DNA of 64,000 bases from an uncultured Erysipelotrichaceae bacterium (GTDB taxonomy: Bacteria; Bacillota_I; Bacilli_A; RFN20; CAG-826): NCBI GenBank assembly GCA_902787955.1, contig CADAIJ010000007.1, forward strand, positions 62,001 to 126,000, given 5' to 3'. Position 1 is the first letter of the stretch. Every line of letters starts with the position of its first letter. Both the position numbers and the translations under genes were made by a program. The notes beneath the pieces are model-generated. The model made no database searches. It saw only the letters and a program-made list of their open reading frames with translations, and had not been told where the DNA came from. Of the stretch, positions 46,004-53,912 are shown piece by piece.

Positions 46004-46033
46004 GAAAAGCCTCCAATGGGAATTTTAGAGGCT
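46004..46033 (-). terminator. Terminator after phosphoglucomutase
   Basis: On the minus strand AGCCTC (46028-46033) pairs with GAGGCT (46008-46013) and is followed by TTTTCTTA. It ends the partner-switching/ppGpp operon 13 bases after the pgm stop. Confidence 0.7.
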
Positions 46034-46046
46034 ATTCATAAATATA

Positions 46047-47732
46047 TTATTTCATGAATTCGTTAATCGTTTTCACGTATTTATTAAGGTGTTCTTCGCC
46101 TAACGCAAAGACATAATATTTAATCTTTGGTTCAGTTCCAGATGGACGAATAGTAATTGTTTCACCATCTTTAAGGAATAACTTAATAACATTTGATTTT
46201 GGTAAGTTAGTTGGTTCTTTATGATCTTTGAAGTGAATAAAGCCTTCTTGATAATCACCGATATGATCAATATCTCCAAATAATTCGTGGGCTTTATTTC
46301 CTCTAAAGGATTCCATAATAGCAAGAATCTTTTGTTTGCCTTCAACACCACTAAGTTCAAAAGCAAGTGTTGCGGTTTTGAAATCGCCAAATTCTTTATA
46401 GAGTTCAACTAATCTATCATATAAAGTCTTACCTTCGTGTTTGTATTTGTTAGCCATTTCGGCAACAAGTAAGCAAGCATTAACCGCGTCTTTATCACGA
46501 ACATCAATGTTAGTGAGATAACCACAGGATTCTTCGAATCCTAATAAATATCTTTCAACTTCACCTTTTTGTTCAAGGAAGAAGATTTGTTCACCAATAA
46601 ATTTGAAACCAGTTAAAACTTCATTAACTTGGACACCATATTGTTTAGCCATAACATTAACCATATCACTAGAAACAATGGTTTTAACAACGACTGGTAC
46701 TTTTGGTAAGGTGCCATTAGCTTTCTTAACATGATAAATAAAGTCGAATAAGAGAATACCAACTTCGTTACCAGTTAAGATAACAGGTTTACCTTTTTGA
46801 TTAACGACAACACCCACTCTATCACTATCTGGATCGGTAGCGAGTAAAACGTCATCATTATTCTTAAGCATTAATTCAATACCAAGCTTTAAGGCTGGTT
46901 CCATTTCTGGGTTAGGATATGGACAAGTTGGGAAATCACCGTTTGGTTTTGCTTGTTCATTTACTACATCAACATTGAAATTTGTTTTTCTTAAAACAGT
47001 AGTAACGCATCTATAACCCGCACCATAAAGAGGAGTGTAGGCAATATTAAGAATCCTTTCGCTATTATCTAATGAACATCTAAGAGTGGAATCAAAGTAA
47101 TCAGAGATGAGTTTTTCATCAATAAAAATAATCTTTCCACGAACAACTAATTTATCAAAATCCCCATAGGAAATCCCTTTAAATGGTGATAATGATTGAA
47201 TTTGTTCATAGACAGCATTAGCAGCATCAATTGTTAATTGGCAGCCATCACTTCCATAAACTTTATAGCCATTATATTTTGATGGGTTATGAGAAGCGGT
47301 AACAACAATACCAGCATCACATTTTAAATATCTAACCGCATAAGAAAGAGCAGGTGTAGGCATTAATTCTTTATAAATATAAACTGTGATATTGTTACTT
47401 GCTAAGACGTTAGCAGCTTCTAAGGCAAAATTACGAGAGTTATTTCTACTATCATAACCAATCGCAACGGAATTAGTTCTTCTTTGTTTTAAAAGATATT
47501 GGGCTAATCCTTGAGTGGCTCTTCTAATAACGAAACGATTCATGCGGTTTGTACCAACTCCCATGATTCCTCTTAAACCACCTGTTCCAAATTCAAGATC
47601 AGAAATAAAGCGGTCTGTTATTTCGTTTTCGTTGTCTTTAATAAATAATAATTCAGCTTTTTCATCGCCTGATAATGATGGCTCATTTAGCCATAAGTTG
47701 TATCTTTGTTCGACTTCTTTAAGCATGGACAT
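46047..47732 (-). CDS. Phosphoglucomutase/phosphomannomutase
   Basis: Alpha-D-phosphohexomutase interconverting hexose 1- and 6-phosphates (561 residues). The phospho-serine loop TASHNPSKYNG is at about 144-154, the metal loop DPDSDR at about 304, the sugar loop FEESCGYL and the phosphate-binding RPSGTEPKIKYYV at the C-terminus. The large size fits the PgcA-type Firmicute phosphoglucomutase. It is the last gene of the operon, 59 bases after manC; together they would turn hexose 6-phosphate into GDP-mannose or UDP-glucose precursors. ATG 47732 has AAGAGGAA upstream. Confidence 0.93.
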   Translation of the reverse strand: MSMLKEVEQRYNLWLNEPSLSGDEKAELLFIKDNENEITDRFISDLEFGTGGLRGIMGVGTNRMNRFVIRRATQGLAQYLLKQRRTNSVAIGYDSRNNSRNFALEAANVLASNNITVYIYKELMPTPALSYAVRYLKCDAGIVVTASHNPSKYNGYKVYGSDGCQLTIDAANAVYEQIQSLSPFKGISYGDFDKLVVRGKIIFIDEKLISDYFDSTLRCSLDNSERILNIAYTPLYGAGYRCVTTVLRKTNFNVDVVNEQAKPNGDFPTCPYPNPEMEPALKLGIELMLKNNDDVLLATDPDSDRVGVVVNQKGKPVILTGNEVGILLFDFIYHVKKANGTLPKVPVVVKTIVSSDMVNVMAKQYGVQVNEVLTGFKFIGEQIFFLEQKGEVERYLLGFEESCGYLTNIDVRDKDAVNACLLVAEMANKYKHEGKTLYDRLVELYKEFGDFKTATLAFELSGVEGKQKILAIMESFRGNKAHELFGDIDHIGDYQEGFIHFKDHKEPTNLPKSNVIKLFLKDGETITIRPSGTEPKIKYYVFALGEEHLNKYVKTINEFMK

Positions 47733-47791
47733 TTCCTCTTTTCGACAATATTGTATATTTGTGTAATTTTAATTACAAGTAATTAGCTCGG

Positions 47792-48865
47792 CTAAATATA
47801 TTTATTGTTATCGACACCTTTAAGTTGATTAACAACATCTTTAACTTCATCGATATGATCTTTTTTCGCAATTAAGATAACATCGTTTGTATTAACAATA
47901 ACCATATCTTCTAAACCAATCGTAACAAACATCTTCTTGGTTGAAGAAACAATGGTTGTATTTTTAGTATTATGGTTTAAAACTTTAGCGCGTTTAGCGA
48001 TATTACCATTTTCATCTTTTTGGTGATGTCTATCAATTGCTAACCAACTACCTAAGTCATCCCATTCAAATGTTCCTTTAGTAACATAAATGTTATCGGC
48101 TTTTTCCATAACACCATAGTCAATGGAAATCTTTTCTAAACTCGCAAATGTGGTTGCATAGTTTTGATAGAATTCAAGTTTAGGAAGTTTAAATAAGTTA
48201 TCTAATGTTTCATATTGCTGTGGCATATATTTTTGGAAAGCATGCATCATTGTGGAGAGCTTATAAATAAACATACCTGCATTCCATAAATATCCACCAT
48301 TTTTGACATATTTTTTAGCAACTTCTAAAGATGGTTTTTCTTTAAAAGAGCGGACTTTATATAGGTTATTTTCAACTTCTTCACCTTCTTCGATATAGCC
48401 AAAGCCAGTATCTGGGTGAGAAGGATTAATACCGATTGTGACGATAGCGTCGTTATTCTCTAAGAACTTTGTTGCTTTCTCAATTAGTTCAACATATTTC
48501 TTATCATCATCAATATATTGATCACTTGGAATAGTTACAACGACAACATCTTGGTTATATCTATCTTGAATATAACGAAGGGCTAAGTTAATCGCCGGAG
48601 CGGTATTTCTACCAACTGGCTCTAAAATAACATTCTCGTCTTGGATTTCAGGTAAAGAAAGTAAAACAGCTTCTTTATATTTTTCACCGGTAACAACATA
48701 AATATCTTTATAAGGTGTAAGAGATTTAACTCTTTCAGCTGTATCAAAGATGAGTGGATGTCCACTACCAGAAAGATCTAAGAATTGTTTTGGTTTAGCT
48801 GTGCGACTTTCAGGCCAGAAGCGTTCGCCAACACCACCAGCAATAATTAATGTAATAATTTTCAT
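47792..48865 (-). CDS. manC: Mannose-1-phosphate guanylyltransferase
   Basis: Makes GDP-mannose from mannose 1-phosphate and GTP. The 357-residue, isomerase-less form starts MKIITLIIAGGVGERFWP, with TAKPKQFLDLSG (nucleotide binding), NTAPAINLALRYI, and YLWNAGMFIYKLS, TFEWDDLGSW. It is 26 bases after the HD/kinase gene. Its GDP/GTP product balance makes a functional link with (p)ppGpp metabolism conceivable. Related enzymes can use other sugars, so the exact nucleotide sugar is inferred. Confidence 0.92.
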   Translation of the reverse strand: MKIITLIIAGGVGERFWPESRTAKPKQFLDLSGSGHPLIFDTAERVKSLTPYKDIYVVTGEKYKEAVLLSLPEIQDENVILEPVGRNTAPAINLALRYIQDRYNQDVVVVTIPSDQYIDDDKKYVELIEKATKFLENNDAIVTIGINPSHPDTGFGYIEEGEEVENNLYKVRSFKEKPSLEVAKKYVKNGGYLWNAGMFIYKLSTMMHAFQKYMPQQYETLDNLFKLPKLEFYQNYATTFASLEKISIDYGVMEKADNIYVTKGTFEWDDLGSWLAIDRHHQKDENGNIAKRAKVLNHNTKNTTIVSSTKKMFVTIGLEDMVIVNTNDVILIAKKDHIDEVKDVVNQLKGVDNNKYI

Positions 48866-48891: not shown

Positions 48892-50610
48892 TTAATCAGT
48901 TACAAGGACATCATCACAATTATCATCGAGAAGCTGACCAAGTACTTTATTATAGATTTCTGAATCAATTTCAAAACGTTTAAATCTAGCGTGATAAATC
49001 AAACGGAATGCTGCAAATTTCTTACATATCTTCCACTCTTTTTCTAAATCCTTACCTTCGAAATAGACTGGGAAGAAGGCATCATAGAACTTCTTCATAG
49101 TGGCTCTATCAAAGTGGAATATTTGCATACAGCGTTCATCATTTACTGCATGAGCGAACAAATACATTGAACCAATATCATAATATGGTGAACCAATAGC
49201 AAGATCCGCTAAGTCAATCATAATATTATCGCCTTTATCAGTCATAACCGCGTTTCCTGTATGGAAGTCACCATGAATTAATGTTTTAGCGTCTTTATAT
49301 TCAAGGATTAAGGCTTTTAGTTTCTCGACAATATCTTTGTCTAACTTAGGCGCTAAAATGTTCACAAAACCTAATTCGATTTCACTTTGATCTGGGAATA
49401 TTCCTGGAAGAGGAGTGATTTTATGGAATTCACGAGTCATTAAAGCAAAGCGTCTTGCGATTTCTGGAATCTTTTCAGGTTCATTAGCAACTGCTCTAGA
49501 GAATGAAATTTTATTAGCAACTCTTTCAAAAGAGAAACCAATACGATCACCGAAGTAACAGATTTCACCACTAATAGGAGTGTTAACGCCAGTAAGCAAA
49601 GCTTCTTTAGCCATAATCTTCTCTTGTTCAATCATATTGGCTGGAACTTTGTTAGAGAAGAGTTTAATCATAATATCTTCATCTTTTTCATCAAAATAGG
49701 TCGTAGAAGTATAGCCATCTCCGGAAATATACATTCCTTCGAGAGTGCCATGACCATATTTCTTAACAAGTGGAATTAATGATGAGATACCATTATCTTC
49801 AAGTTTTGAAGCAATATTTGGACTTACTAAACGTAAGAACATACGATAACCGTTTTGGTGTAAACGAATTAAAGTTCTCATCGCACCAAAAGATAAACCA
49901 GTTAATTTATCACAGTTAATAATGTTTTCTTTACCTTTATCTAAAGCGTTTTCGATTGTAAGAGAATCTTCTTTTGAAACATAACCTTCAAGTAAGATTT
50001 CTCGATCAGTTTTAGTTAATTTAAATTCGACATAACGGTCAAAGACATCGTGTACATCTTGTTCAAATTCTTTAAAAGCGTAATATTCTTTTAATTCACT
50101 TAAAGCGTCCACTAAAGAAAGATAATACCAGGCGTGATTTCTTGGATCATTATCATGAAATCTTTCCCAAATCTTATTACCAATTTCAAGATAGTCTTGT
50201 TTGATAGCTCTAATGTTAGAAAGTTTATCGCCTAAGGCCACCATTTTCGCTTCTTTAGAGGCATTCTTAAGATGGTCTAAGGTCGCTTGTTTTTTATCTT
50301 TCCAAGAGACCATATTGCCTTCTAAATCAATTTCATAAGAAGTCTCAGATTTTACAATTGAAGCGACTTCTGCGCCAAATTCTTTTTCTATATCTTCGAT
50401 TTTAATAGGAGTATCTTCGGCAACATCATGAAGAACTGCCGCGGCTAAAAGAGTTTGATCATTGCTCATTGTGCTAACAATACTTAATGCTTCTAGAGGA
50501 TGAACAATATAAGGAAATCCTTTGCCTCTTCTTTCCGTATTTGCGTGAGCTTTTGTCGCGAAGATAATCGCTTTATCTAATAAAGTTGAATCAATATATT
50601 TTTCTGCCAT
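48892..50610 (-). CDS. HD hydrolase-STAS-like-APH kinase fusion
   Basis: A 572-residue protein with three apparent domains. (1) HD-type ppGpp hydrolase (about 5-185): FPYIVHP (His37), LHDVAEDT (His61-Asp62, Glu65-Asp66) and LGDKLSNIRAI (Asp128) match the RelA/SpoT HD pattern. (2) Residues about 197-285 resemble a STAS domain: INCDKLTGLSFGAMRTLIRL aligns with the LSSAGLRIL loop of the STAS protein at 53586, with Ser240 in the phosphorylation-loop position. (3) Aminoglycoside/choline-kinase-like domain (about 290-540) with Lys316, HGDFHTGN (446-453) and MIDLADLAIGSPYYD (Asp466). Its start is one base after the synthetase gene. No similar architecture is known to me. Confidence 0.85.
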   Translation of the reverse strand: MAEKYIDSTLLDKAIIFATKAHANTERRGKGFPYIVHPLEALSIVSTMSNDQTLLAAAVLHDVAEDTPIKIEDIEKEFGAEVASIVKSETSYEIDLEGNMVSWKDKKQATLDHLKNASKEAKMVALGDKLSNIRAIKQDYLEIGNKIWERFHDNDPRNHAWYYLSLVDALSELKEYYAFKEFEQDVHDVFDRYVEFKLTKTDREILLEGYVSKEDSLTIENALDKGKENIINCDKLTGLSFGAMRTLIRLHQNGYRMFLRLVSPNIASKLEDNGISSLIPLVKKYGHGTLEGMYISGDGYTSTTYFDEKDEDIMIKLFSNKVPANMIEQEKIMAKEALLTGVNTPISGEICYFGDRIGFSFERVANKISFSRAVANEPEKIPEIARRFALMTREFHKITPLPGIFPDQSEIELGFVNILAPKLDKDIVEKLKALILEYKDAKTLIHGDFHTGNAVMTDKGDNIMIDLADLAIGSPYYDIGSMYLFAHAVNDERCMQIFHFDRATMKKFYDAFFPVYFEGKDLEKEWKICKKFAAFRLIYHARFKRFEIDSEIYNKVLGQLLDDNCDDVLVTD

Positions 50611-50611
50611 T

Positions 50612-51691
50612 TTATTCTTTTAACACTCCTGATTTTCTCGCAATTTCACAAATGCGTTTTGCTTGTCTAGCGTTGCTCTTTCTCTCACCATAAATAAGGC
50701 CTAAGAATAAACCAACACCAACTTCACCACCACCAGCTTTAAGAATATAAGTAATGAGTAAATAATATAAAGCTGTTGTCGAAGTCATAATATCGATATC
50801 AGTATCACTGAAGGCTTTAACCGCTAAAGTATAAGCGTCGTCAGCGTATGATTTAAATATCTCATCTAATTGGCCTAAAGTTAAAATATTCATCTTCTTT
50901 AAGGCAATTAAGTATGGAGTGGTTGAAACCATTGTAATTTCCATATTATTAATCTTCGCAATACGTTCACTAAGAATAAGGAAGTGACCCATGCCAAGAT
51001 ATTCTCTAAAGGAATCAGCGTTGAGTTCAACATCATTAAGATTACCTGATTCAACAAGACTCTTAACGACACGACGATATTCAGTTAAGTTAAATCTTAA
51101 TTCAGAGAATTGCTTATCCGCTAATTCAAGGAGACCAGCTAAACTTGATAATGTTCTAAGTGATTCACGAGGAATTTCAACATCGCTTTTATAACCAGTA
51201 TCATGGTAGATAGAAGCCCAAACATGTTGAAGCGCGGTCCTCATTTGAAGTTCAAATCTAAGTTCATTAACTAAAGGATGTTTTTCATCGTTATATAATG
51301 ACTTTGGAATACGGCAAATATAGTGAAGAGACATATAACCAAAACGGTCTACATCGTGGAGTTTTCTTTTATCAACTGTATTTTCCCAGTCAATTTCAAA
51401 AACATCACTTATAATGCCTGCGAATTTATCAACTTCATCAGTATAAAAGGTAACAACACGAGCACCGACTAAATCTGTTAAGTCTGATAAAGAGGCGTAT
51501 TTATACCCTTTTCTTTCGAGTTTTCCTTCTAAAGAATCACGTTTTTTAATACGAGATTCAACAGAATTGATAAACATGTCATGTTCTCTAACAATTTTAT
51601 TTAATGCTTTATCAATGATTTCTTTTTGAATTTTAAGTGATTCATAAGCAGCATCATATTCTTCGAGAATCATTTGAGCTTTAAAGTCCAT
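50612..51691 (-). CDS. RelA/SpoT-type (p)ppGpp synthetase
   Basis: Probable alarmone synthetase (359 residues) without the HD and TGS-ACT parts of a long RSH protein. The synthetase domain covers about 20-175: ASLSDLTDLVGARVVTFY with Asp73, RFGYMSLHYIC (Gly118-Tyr119, His123) and ELRFELQMRTALQHVWASIYHD with Glu147 and Arg151. These are the conserved catalytic and GDP-binding residues. The rest is helical with a hydrophobic C-terminal segment. The next gene supplies an HD hydrolase, so the two activities are split over adjacent proteins. Confidence 0.88.
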   Translation of the reverse strand: MDFKAQMILEEYDAAYESLKIQKEIIDKALNKIVREHDMFINSVESRIKKRDSLEGKLERKGYKYASLSDLTDLVGARVVTFYTDEVDKFAGIISDVFEIDWENTVDKRKLHDVDRFGYMSLHYICRIPKSLYNDEKHPLVNELRFELQMRTALQHVWASIYHDTGYKSDVEIPRESLRTLSSLAGLLELADKQFSELRFNLTEYRRVVKSLVESGNLNDVELNADSFREYLGMGHFLILSERIAKINNMEITMVSTTPYLIALKKMNILTLGQLDEIFKSYADDAYTLAVKAFSDTDIDIMTSTTALYYLLITYILKAGGGEVGVGLFLGLIYGERKSNARQAKRICEIARKSGVLKE

Positions 51692-51706: not shown

Positions 51707-53584
51707 TTATAAATTCTTTTTAATTGTTAAAATGTTTTGATTGTTTTTGTATTCGTAAGAAATTTCGTCCATTGATTGTTTAACAATAAAGATACCTAAA
51801 CCACCGATTTGTCTTTCGCTAGCGTCTAAAGTGATATCAGGATTTTCGAGTTCAAGAGGGTTAAATGGTCTTCCATTATCCACGAATGAAATTGAAACGG
51901 AAACAGGTTCTTCTTTAAGTTCGATACGAACAATGGCTTTACCAACTTCAGGGTTATAGGCGAATTTAACAATGTTTGAGAATAATTCATCAATCGCAAC
52001 ATTGATTTGATAAATAGCTTTTTTGTTATTAGTAACTTTGCTTAAGAAATCATTAACAAAATCGGTAACAACATCGAGATTTTCCGATAAGGAGTCCACT
52101 GAAATCTCTTTTTTAAGGCTTGGTGTACCTTTGAAAAGAACACTGATAATAGTGATATCATCAAATTGATCTTCACCATTAACAAACTTATTAATTTCAG
52201 CTTGAACGACTTTAGTTAATTCTTCAGGATTTAAGTCAGGATTTGCGTTAAGAATATTTAGTAATCTTTCTTCACCGAATATTTCTTTGTTTGCGTTAGT
52301 GGCTTCAGTAACCCCATCAGTGTAGAAGAATATTTGATCTCCAGGAACAAGTTTAAAGGATGTGGCTTTAAATTTAGTTTCTTCCAAACCACCTAAAACA
52401 AATCCGCGAGGAAGTTTAACATATTCGTATTTGTTATTTCTTTTAATAAGGATTGGATTATGACCTGCATTTGCGACGATTAATTCACCAGTTAAAATAT
52501 TTAATCTAGCGGTAACCGCGGTAACAAATAATCCACTTTGATTGAATTGGTAAAGTTCTTGGTTAGCAAGTTCGAGGGCTTTTTCTAAATAAATACCTGT
52601 TTTTGTAACGGATTTAAGTAAAGTTTTTGTTCCCATCATCTCTAAAGCAGCAGGAACACCTTTGCCACTTACATCACCAATAGTGAAAATGAGTTCATGA
52701 GGATTACACATATAGAAGTCATAGAAATCTCCACCGACTTCTTTAGCAGGATCCATAATCGCATATAATTCATATTCATTAGTGTTAGGGAATTCACGAG
52801 GAAGAATACCAACTTGAATATTAGATGCAATACCAAGTTCAGCAGCAATCTTTTCTTTATCTCTTGTAAAATCACTATCTTTCTTAAGAAGTTTTTCAGT
52901 ACGAATCGTAAGTTGAAGAGAAATAAAGAACATTAAGGAGAGCATGACCATTCTAGACATGTAATAATAGACAACTATCTTAATATATCTATTCTCGCCA
53001 TATTGCATAAGGCTATTAAGGTATTCAATTCTCCCGTTAACATCTGAAGTCTCAATTTTCATTGATTCAGCAACACCAGTGTTATCCATACCGCCCATTA
53101 AATATGGGTCCCATTCACCAAATAACATCGCAAAATACATACAAAGTAGCATCATGATTGATACTGAAATGAAGATTGCCAAGCTAGTTCTCGGACTATA
53201 ATAGTGGCACGCTAAAACGATAATAACTGCCCAGCCTAAGATCGAATGCTTAGGAATGATTACATTAACAACGGAAACAACAAAGATGAATAAAGAGAGT
53301 AAGTAATACTTAAACCAAGGTTGTTTAATGTATTTTGTTTTATAGAAGAATAACGGGGTTAATAGGAGAACCATTGAGATAGGAATCGCAATGTTAAGGA
53401 TGGTCATTATTGATTGCATCCCAAGTTCAAAAACACCAGTTAAATAGAAAACCCATATAAGTAGCATTAAGAAAGAGCCAAAAGCACAACCAAATGCTAA
53501 TGCTTTATTTGCGGAATATTCATTCTCTTGTAATGTTTTAGAATCAATAGCGCGCTTTTTAAAAACAGCAAACGGATTATTCAT
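51707..53584 (-). CDS. Membrane SpoIIE-type phosphatase fused to an RsbW-like ATPase
   Basis: A 625-residue membrane signal protein. Hydrophobic helices lie in residues 30-230. A PP2C/SpoIIE phosphatase domain follows (about 250-485) with metal Asp residues in GGDFYDF (286), IGDVSGKG (304), NAGHNP, YTDGVTEA (423) and FDDIT (475-476). The C-terminus (about 490-625) is an RsbW/SpoIIAB-like GHKL ATPase: IDELFSNIVKFAY (N box), VDNGRPFNP and QIGGLGIFIVKQ. It starts one base after the STAS gene, which is its natural substrate: the ATPase would phosphorylate and the phosphatase dephosphorylate STAS proteins in a partner switch. Confidence 0.93.
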   Translation of the reverse strand: MNNPFAVFKKRAIDSKTLQENEYSANKALAFGCAFGSFLMLLIWVFYLTGVFELGMQSIMTILNIAIPISMVLLLTPLFFYKTKYIKQPWFKYYLLSLFIFVVSVVNVIIPKHSILGWAVIIVLACHYYSPRTSLAIFISVSIMMLLCMYFAMLFGEWDPYLMGGMDNTGVAESMKIETSDVNGRIEYLNSLMQYGENRYIKIVVYYYMSRMVMLSLMFFISLQLTIRTEKLLKKDSDFTRDKEKIAAELGIASNIQVGILPREFPNTNEYELYAIMDPAKEVGGDFYDFYMCNPHELIFTIGDVSGKGVPAALEMMGTKTLLKSVTKTGIYLEKALELANQELYQFNQSGLFVTAVTARLNILTGELIVANAGHNPILIKRNNKYEYVKLPRGFVLGGLEETKFKATSFKLVPGDQIFFYTDGVTEATNANKEIFGEERLLNILNANPDLNPEELTKVVQAEINKFVNGEDQFDDITIISVLFKGTPSLKKEISVDSLSENLDVVTDFVNDFLSKVTNNKKAIYQINVAIDELFSNIVKFAYNPEVGKAIVRIELKEEPVSVSISFVDNGRPFNPLELENPDITLDASERQIGGLGIFIVKQSMDEISYEYKNNQNILTIKKNL

Positions 53585-53585
53585 A

Positions 53586-53888
53586 TTAGGCCTCTTCGAT
53601 AGTTAAAATGCTACTGAAACCAGTCATGTCGAAGGTTTCCATAATTAAGTCGTTAACATTTCGAAGAATCATCTTGCCTTGTTTTGACATTGTTTTATGG
53701 GTGATTAAAAGGATTCTTAAACCCGCTGAGGAAAGATAATCAAGATCCTTAAAATCAAAATATAAAGTTTTAACTCCCTCAAGTGCACCATTAAGTGCGG
53801 CATCAAGTTCAGGAGCGGTAGATGTATCAAGCCTACCTCCTAAAGAAATAGTTAAAACGTCGTTTTCTCTTTTTAAATCAATTTTCAT
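53586..53888 (-). CDS. STAS anti-sigma-factor antagonist (RsbV/SpoIIAA-like)
   Basis: Small partner-switching protein. From ATG 53886-53888 it has 100 residues: MKIDLKRENDVLTISLGGRLD, then the loop YLSSAGLRILL with Ser53/Ser54, where phosphorylation switches partners in RsbV/SpoIIAA proteins. GTG at 53900 is possible, but GGAG lies just upstream of the ATG. It is the first gene after the promoter at 53913-53941 and one base before the phosphatase/ATPase gene. No sigma factor is visible in the window, so its target may be another protein of this operon. Confidence 0.92.
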   Translation of the reverse strand: MKIDLKRENDVLTISLGGRLDTSTAPELDAALNGALEGVKTLYFDFKDLDYLSSAGLRILLITHKTMSKQGKMILRNVNDLIMETFDMTGFSSILTIEEA

Positions 53889-53912
53889 ATTGTTCTCCAC
53901 TTTAATGTTTAA

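Follow-up and report, generated by a model that had tools for sequence, protein, structure and literature searches.

A putative partner-switch-controlled alarmone module with a fused hydrolase, STAS and kinase protein in an uncultured Erysipelotrichaceae bacterium

The classical controls of alarmone levels in bacteria are Rel/RelA enzymes bound to the ribosome, SpoT, and the transcription of small synthetases. In the SiaABCD system of Pseudomonas aeruginosa, the PP2C phosphatase SiaA and the kinase SiaB set the phosphorylation state of SiaC, which controls SiaD, encoded in the same operon; unphosphorylated SiaC, a STAS-like protein, binds and activates SiaD, a diguanylate cyclase (PMC7647112, PMC8457831). 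The alarmone synthetase toxin (toxSAS) FaRel is paired with a hydrolase antitoxin, aTfaRel (PMC11782079). Here, we analyzed a 64,000-nucleotide stretch of DNA (the window; contig CADAIJ010000007.1, positions 62,001–126,000) of an uncultured Erysipelotrichaceae bacterium, the minus strand of which carries, at 48892–50610, a gene for a protein composed of an HD hydrolase, a divergent STAS domain and an APH-type kinase. This gene lies in an operon with a small alarmone synthetase, which we call RelS, and a set of partner-switching proteins. By analogy with SiaABCD, we consider it rather probable that the three-domain gene represents the hydrolase and kinase arm of an alarmone module that is controlled by the partner switch.

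The three-domain gene is preceded on the same strand by the genes for a stand-alone STAS protein, a PP2C-GHKL protein and RelS, in this order and with gaps of 1, 15 and 1 bases. The stand-alone STAS protein (53586–53900, 104 amino acids) is of the anti-sigma-factor-antagonist type (Pfam STAS E 1.2e-15; TIGR00377 71 bits, cut-off 53), and its best PDB matches are SpoIIAA and RsbV. The phosphoserine of SpoIIAA, Ser58 (PMC3517971), aligns in the PDB alignment with the second serine of the SSAGLR motif of the operon protein, which is also Ser58 (codon 53727–53729), and both S57 and S58 are kept in all 64 of the 64 stand-alone STAS proteins of the module. This protein is thus predicted to be the phosphorylatable switch protein of the operon, with Ser58 as its phosphosite. 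The PP2C-GHKL gene (51707–53584) encodes, in one chain, a membrane PP2C phosphatase (codons about 52139–52702, Pfam SpoIIE E 1.6e-47) and a GHKL serine kinase (codons about 51716–52087, HATPase_c_2 E 3.1e-19). The motifs GGDFYD, GDVSGKG, TDGVTE, DDITI, ELFSN, DNGRPF and GGLGI were found in it by direct reading, and its hydrophobic N-terminal part of ~230 amino acids is likely to be the signal input.

With a phosphoserine STAS protein, a GHKL kinase and a PP2C phosphatase encoded together, the operon qualifies, judging by its sequence, as a partner-switching system. It has the conserved-phosphoserine STAS protein, the kinase and the phosphatase in common with the SpoIIAA/SpoIIAB/SpoIIE and RsbV/RsbW/RsbU switches but, unlike these, contains no sigma gene and has none adjacent to it. 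In the whole genome, six STAS domains and six GHKL domains stand against just two matches to sigma-70 region 2, both of which are on other contigs, and the output of the switch is therefore probably not a sigma factor.

RelS (50612–51691) consists of a synthetase domain (residues about 1–210, Pfam RelA_SpoT E 1.9e-15) and a family-specific helical C-terminal domain (residues about 215–359, 50615–51049), as modeled by AlphaFold2 with a pLDDT of 90. R47, K49, S53, K57, D73, Y119, E147 and H163 are kept in 77 of 77 proteins, across which all synthetase residues that were checked are invariant except for two flanking positions. The synthetase fold and catalytic residues are shared with RelP (YwaC) and RelQ (YjbM), which are matched by RelS both in PDB sequence searches (E 4e-14 to 3e-10) and in fold (E 1e-9). 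In contrast to RelP and RelQ, however, RelS carries ~145 extra helical residues at its C-terminus, for which there is no Pfam match and no PDB fold match among the matches listed, and it scores 57 bits against the NCBIfam YjbM (RelQ equivalog) profile, below the cut-off of 320. RelS may represent a new subfamily of small alarmone synthetases, and alarmone synthesis is predicted for it. Because SiaC binds the stalk of SiaD (PMC8457831), the helical C-terminal domain is, by analogy, likely to be the docking site of the STAS protein.

The three-domain gene is an open reading frame that starts with ATG and encodes a 572-amino-acid fusion of a SpoT/SAH-type HD hydrolase, a decayed and divergent STAS domain and a TIGR02172/APH-type kinase. 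This make-up had been proposed in an initial annotation of the DNA and is borne out by HD_4 and APH/TIGR02172 matches, by STAS profile comparison and by the AlphaFold2 fold. The residues it listed (H37, H61-D62, E65-D66, D128, the HGDFHTGN motif at H446–N453, and D466), as well as its alignment of L239-S240-F241-G-A-M-R245-T-L with LSSAGLRIL of the stand-alone STAS protein, are all correctly placed. Full-length relatives of the protein are present in further genomes. A broken or degenerate gene is ruled out by the intact reading frame and by the ratios of nonsynonymous to synonymous substitution rates relative to a 95% identical homologue (0.07 for the HD, 0.11 for the STAS and 0.07 for the kinase part), which indicate purifying selection throughout, slightly weaker on the STAS domain.

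The HD domain (residues 1–190, 50041–50610) matches Pfam HD_4 over residues 14–138 (E 8e-18). In sequence, it is nearest among solved structures to those of small alarmone hydrolases (7qoe, E 2e-24; 7qoc, E 4e-19), which its predicted fold also matches with a TM-score of 0.84–0.88 by target length. Residues R27, H37, H61, D62, E65 and D66 are kept in 62 of 62 sequences, and D128 and N132 in 61 of 62, with one gap. The domain has its fold and all metal- and substrate-binding residues in common with small alarmone hydrolases (RelH/SAH, 7qoc, 7qoe; Mesh1), and is predicted to break down (pp)pGpp or (pp)pApp. Unlike these enzymes, the HD domain of the window is fused to a STAS domain and a kinase, whereas a lone HD protein is found in other copies of the module.

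The Pfam STAS profile has no match in the middle part (residues 191–292, 49735–50040) of the window protein on its own, and hmmsearch with a profile of the module STAS proteins matched only two of the homologues. Pfam STAS or STAS_2 does match the same place in four homologous three-domain proteins (E 2.8e-4 to 0.035), and the hhalign comparison of seven three-domain middle parts to 70 stand-alone module STAS proteins gave a probability of 97.2 (E 4e-11, 85 columns), which held at 96.4 after the two most STAS-like rows had been dropped. Comparisons of the middle-domain profile to HD, kinase, GHKL, PP2C and RelS profiles stayed below 2, and 100 column-shuffled copies reached at most 1.7, which rules out a chance likeness. 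AlphaFold2 (89-sequence alignment, mean pLDDT 92) folds residues 197–283 in the order β-β-α-β-α-β-α-β, which is the STAS topology; a Foldseek search with the full model returned HD and kinase matches and no STAS domain among the matches listed. Profile-profile comparison and structure prediction both point to the STAS fold that the initial annotation had seen in this part. It had also named the absence of this fold, or a C-terminal part unable to bind ATP, as grounds for its rejection; in the part of this check that was run, the fold is predicted to be present and the residues of the ATP site are all in place.

The phosphosite, however, is gone. The column of SpoIIAA Ser58, at which the S-to-A variant chain of 1tid/1til has its alanine, is occupied by Phe241 (codon 49888–49890) in the window protein and by F, V, A, F, F and Y in six homologues. 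Ser240, for which phosphorylation by the GHKL domain had been suggested, sits one residue ahead of this column, is replaced by D, N or K in homologues and is rejected as the phosphosite on the basis of the sequence. Lacking a phosphorylatable serine or threonine at this position, the middle domain is, as judged from the alignment, not a usual partner-switch substrate. The broader connection of the three-domain protein to the GHKL protein of the same operon is upheld.

The kinase domain (residues 293–572, 48895–49734) matches NCBIfam TIGR02172 over residues 295–516 (E 3.8e-47) and Pfam APH over residues 372–487 (E 6e-13), and its predicted fold resembles that of APH(3′) and APH(2′′). The APH-type motifs noted initially are complete, and the catalytic residues K316, E330, D448, N453 and D466 are kept in 61 of 62 rows, the remaining row having a gap. 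At 161 bits the window kinase is below the curated TIGR02172 cut-off of 228, which is exceeded by the kinases of three other module loci (L060, L074 and L097; 236–259 bits). The window protein shares its kinase domain with this APH-like family, which was named from Fibrobacter succinogenes. We know of no function for TIGR02172, no mention of which was found in the open-access literature, and the PDB relatives of the kinase are just weak matches to macrolide and aminoglycoside kinases that name no substrate.

The initial annotation held that each of the three families occurs alone, which is incomplete: STAS-kinase fusions with the same domain order are common (28 in the kinase tree) and HD-kinase fusions are found in Bacteroidota (20 loci). 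In the tree, a well-supported branch (100/99) separates module kinases from those of plain STAS-kinase proteins. HD-STAS-kinase proteins are paraphyletic to the HD-kinase group and spread around it, which, under a midpoint root and with long branches, would fit a single STAS-containing fusion followed by STAS loss. The genome of the window encodes a second cassette (G000:C2, L156:8176-11491) that consists of a STAS protein, a STAS-TIGR02172 kinase with an intact phosphosite in its fused STAS domain, and a membrane PP2C-GHKL protein, but has neither RelS nor HD; the kinase is thus a recurrent partner of such switches. This cassette is directly downstream of genes for a radical-SAM/SPASM-like protein and two peptide-exporter-type ABC proteins, as named by reading of their sequences rather than by profile.

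To place the operon in context, 84,980 species genomes were scanned for RelS, which yielded 543 relatives; locus figures refer to the best 80 of these 543, and flank counts to the 48 loci with complete flanks. Uncultured Bacteroidota, Bacillota and related Bacilli of gut and rumen, together with Akkermansia and Fibrobacter, make up most of the best 80, and the module spans gut genomes of Bacteroidota, Bacillota, Verrucomicrobiota and Fibrobacterota. At least one partner-switch gene (STAS, PP2C or GHKL) is present at 42 of the 48 full-flank loci and all three at 30, with an HD gene at 41, whereas no partner-switch genes were found around housekeeping Rel at any of 20 control loci. The set of module genes seen in the window recurs in seven relatives. 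Within the order to which the bacterium belongs, 8 of 279 genomes encode RelS, and in all eight it adjoins an HD gene (six HD-STAS-kinase, two HD alone). Of the best 80 loci, 36 have a lone HD domain, 5 a lone HD domain and a separate kinase, 20 a direct HD-kinase fusion and 8 an HD domain fused with a middle domain, the last group including Lachnospiraceae and Akkermansia. A Bacteroidales locus (L078:5977-7674) has RelS and HD as one 565-amino-acid open reading frame with the synthetase first, which is the reverse of the order in long Rel proteins, and another protein (L054:435-2012, L013) contains a GHKL kinase, a STAS domain and a TIGR02172 kinase. The RelS-HD, HD-kinase and GHKL-STAS-kinase fusions tie the parts of the module to each other, and the three-domain protein can be explained as one such fusion variant among several.

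Combining these findings, we infer a mechanism of five steps. The signal would be received by the membrane PP2C-GHKL protein, the GHKL part of which would phosphorylate, and the PP2C part dephosphorylate, Ser58 of the stand-alone STAS protein. Since unphosphorylated SiaC activates a second-messenger synthase, we propose that the unphosphorylated STAS protein leaves the GHKL kinase and binds RelS, probably via the helical C-terminal domain, thereby starting (or stopping) (p)ppGpp-type synthesis. Removal of the alarmone by the HD domain of the three-domain protein would then reset the system. A second output would come from the kinase, which may phosphorylate a small molecule or a protein. The middle STAS domain could be a relic of a STAS-kinase protein that was joined to the HD domain, and may now act as a scaffold or as a docking domain in a fixed state.

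The likeness to SiaABCD, inferred by analogy, would lie in a STAS-like switch over a nucleotide second-messenger synthase of the same operon. The differences are that an alarmone synthetase, accompanied by its own hydrolase, takes the place of the diguanylate cyclase as the output; that a true STAS protein (PF01740) rather than a DUF1987 protein serves as the switch; and that kinase and phosphatase are in one chain and an additional APH-like kinase is present. Neither a diguanylate cyclase (SiaD) nor DUF1987 (SiaC) is among the Pfam matches of the operon proteins. No description of a partner-switch-controlled alarmone synthetase or module was found in the open-access literature, with subscription journals outside the scope of the search. 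Every part is of a known kind. What appears to be new is the joining of a partner switch to an alarmone synthetase-hydrolase pair, as well as the three-domain protein itself. In its widest form, to which we give an even chance, our model states that gut anaerobes from at least four phyla set the synthesis and breakdown of alarmones by a membrane-sensed Ser/Thr-phosphorylation switch (STAS/GHKL/PP2C) that acts directly on a new-subfamily RelS and the hydrolase dedicated to it, that an APH-like kinase provides a further enzymatic output, and that this constitutes a second, widespread route to the stringent response. If true, membrane signals in rumen and hindgut bacteria would be linked to this response directly at the protein level, not via the ribosome, and TIGR02172 kinases would gain a functional context.

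Two observations weigh against the proposed mechanism: 6 of the 48 full-flank loci have no recognized partner-switch gene, although a divergent one could be missed, and roughly half of the loci have no kinase that was found nearby, which makes the kinase inessential to the module. In an alternative reading, the partner switch truly targets the kinase, and RelS and HD are a parallel alarmone unit that happens to share the operon. The second cassette, in which a switch and a STAS-kinase with an intact phosphosite occur free of RelS and HD, and the GHKL-STAS-kinase fusion both speak for such an arrangement, but at 36 of the 80 loci RelS is accompanied by a lone HD and no kinase was found nearby, while most of these loci retain STAS, PP2C and GHKL, and the STAS domain fused to the window kinase has lost its phosphosite. 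We therefore regard it as rather unlikely. That the middle STAS domain is instead phosphorylated at Ser240 by the neighboring GHKL kinase and gates the hydrolase or the kinase is scarcely credible; the STAS fold is real and the operon does encode a GHKL kinase, but the composition of the phosphosite column in the seven three-domain proteins, the variability of Ser240 and the existence of HD-kinase relatives with no STAS domain at all argue against it.

The remaining alternatives concern the alarmone unit itself. The adjacent synthetase and small hydrolase, which the module has in common with FaRel/aTfaRel (PMC11782079), the patchy occurrence of RelS in the order and a match of RelS to the PADLOC defence-candidate model PDC-S33 (E 1e-17) would be consistent with a toxSAS-antidote system that has the switch proteins as its sensors of phage or stress. 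Yet the other three operon proteins have no PADLOC matches, the module differs from FaRel/aTfaRel in its partner-switch genes, and RelS resembles the non-toxic RelP/RelQ rather than solved toxSAS, with RelP/RelQ nearest (1e-17 to 1e-15) and CapRel distant (0.004) in a profile comparison that covers CapRel, not FaRel, sequences; this explanation is distinctly improbable. Enzymes of the SAH type are promiscuous (PMC10434055, PMC9765508), and the HD domain could act on another nucleotide, as metazoan MESH1 does on NADPH, in an operon that is not about alarmones. We consider this very improbable, as the HD domain adjoins, and is once fused to, an intact alarmone synthetase, the two occurring together in all eight RelS-encoding genomes of the order.

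Among phage records only the HD domain was matched, among the matches listed, and Rfam and tRNA scans of the 64-kb window found nothing. A promoter-like site ahead of the STAS gene and a terminator-like site at 46033–46008 fit a single transcript, but promoter-like sites are no more frequent here than in shuffled sequences. The three-domain gene is followed on the same strand, after 26 and 59 bases, by genes for mannose-1-phosphate guanylyltransferase and phosphomannomutase (46047–48865). These GDP-mannose pathway genes are kept beside the module in the 95% identical relative but not in more distant relatives, in which they are outside the module.
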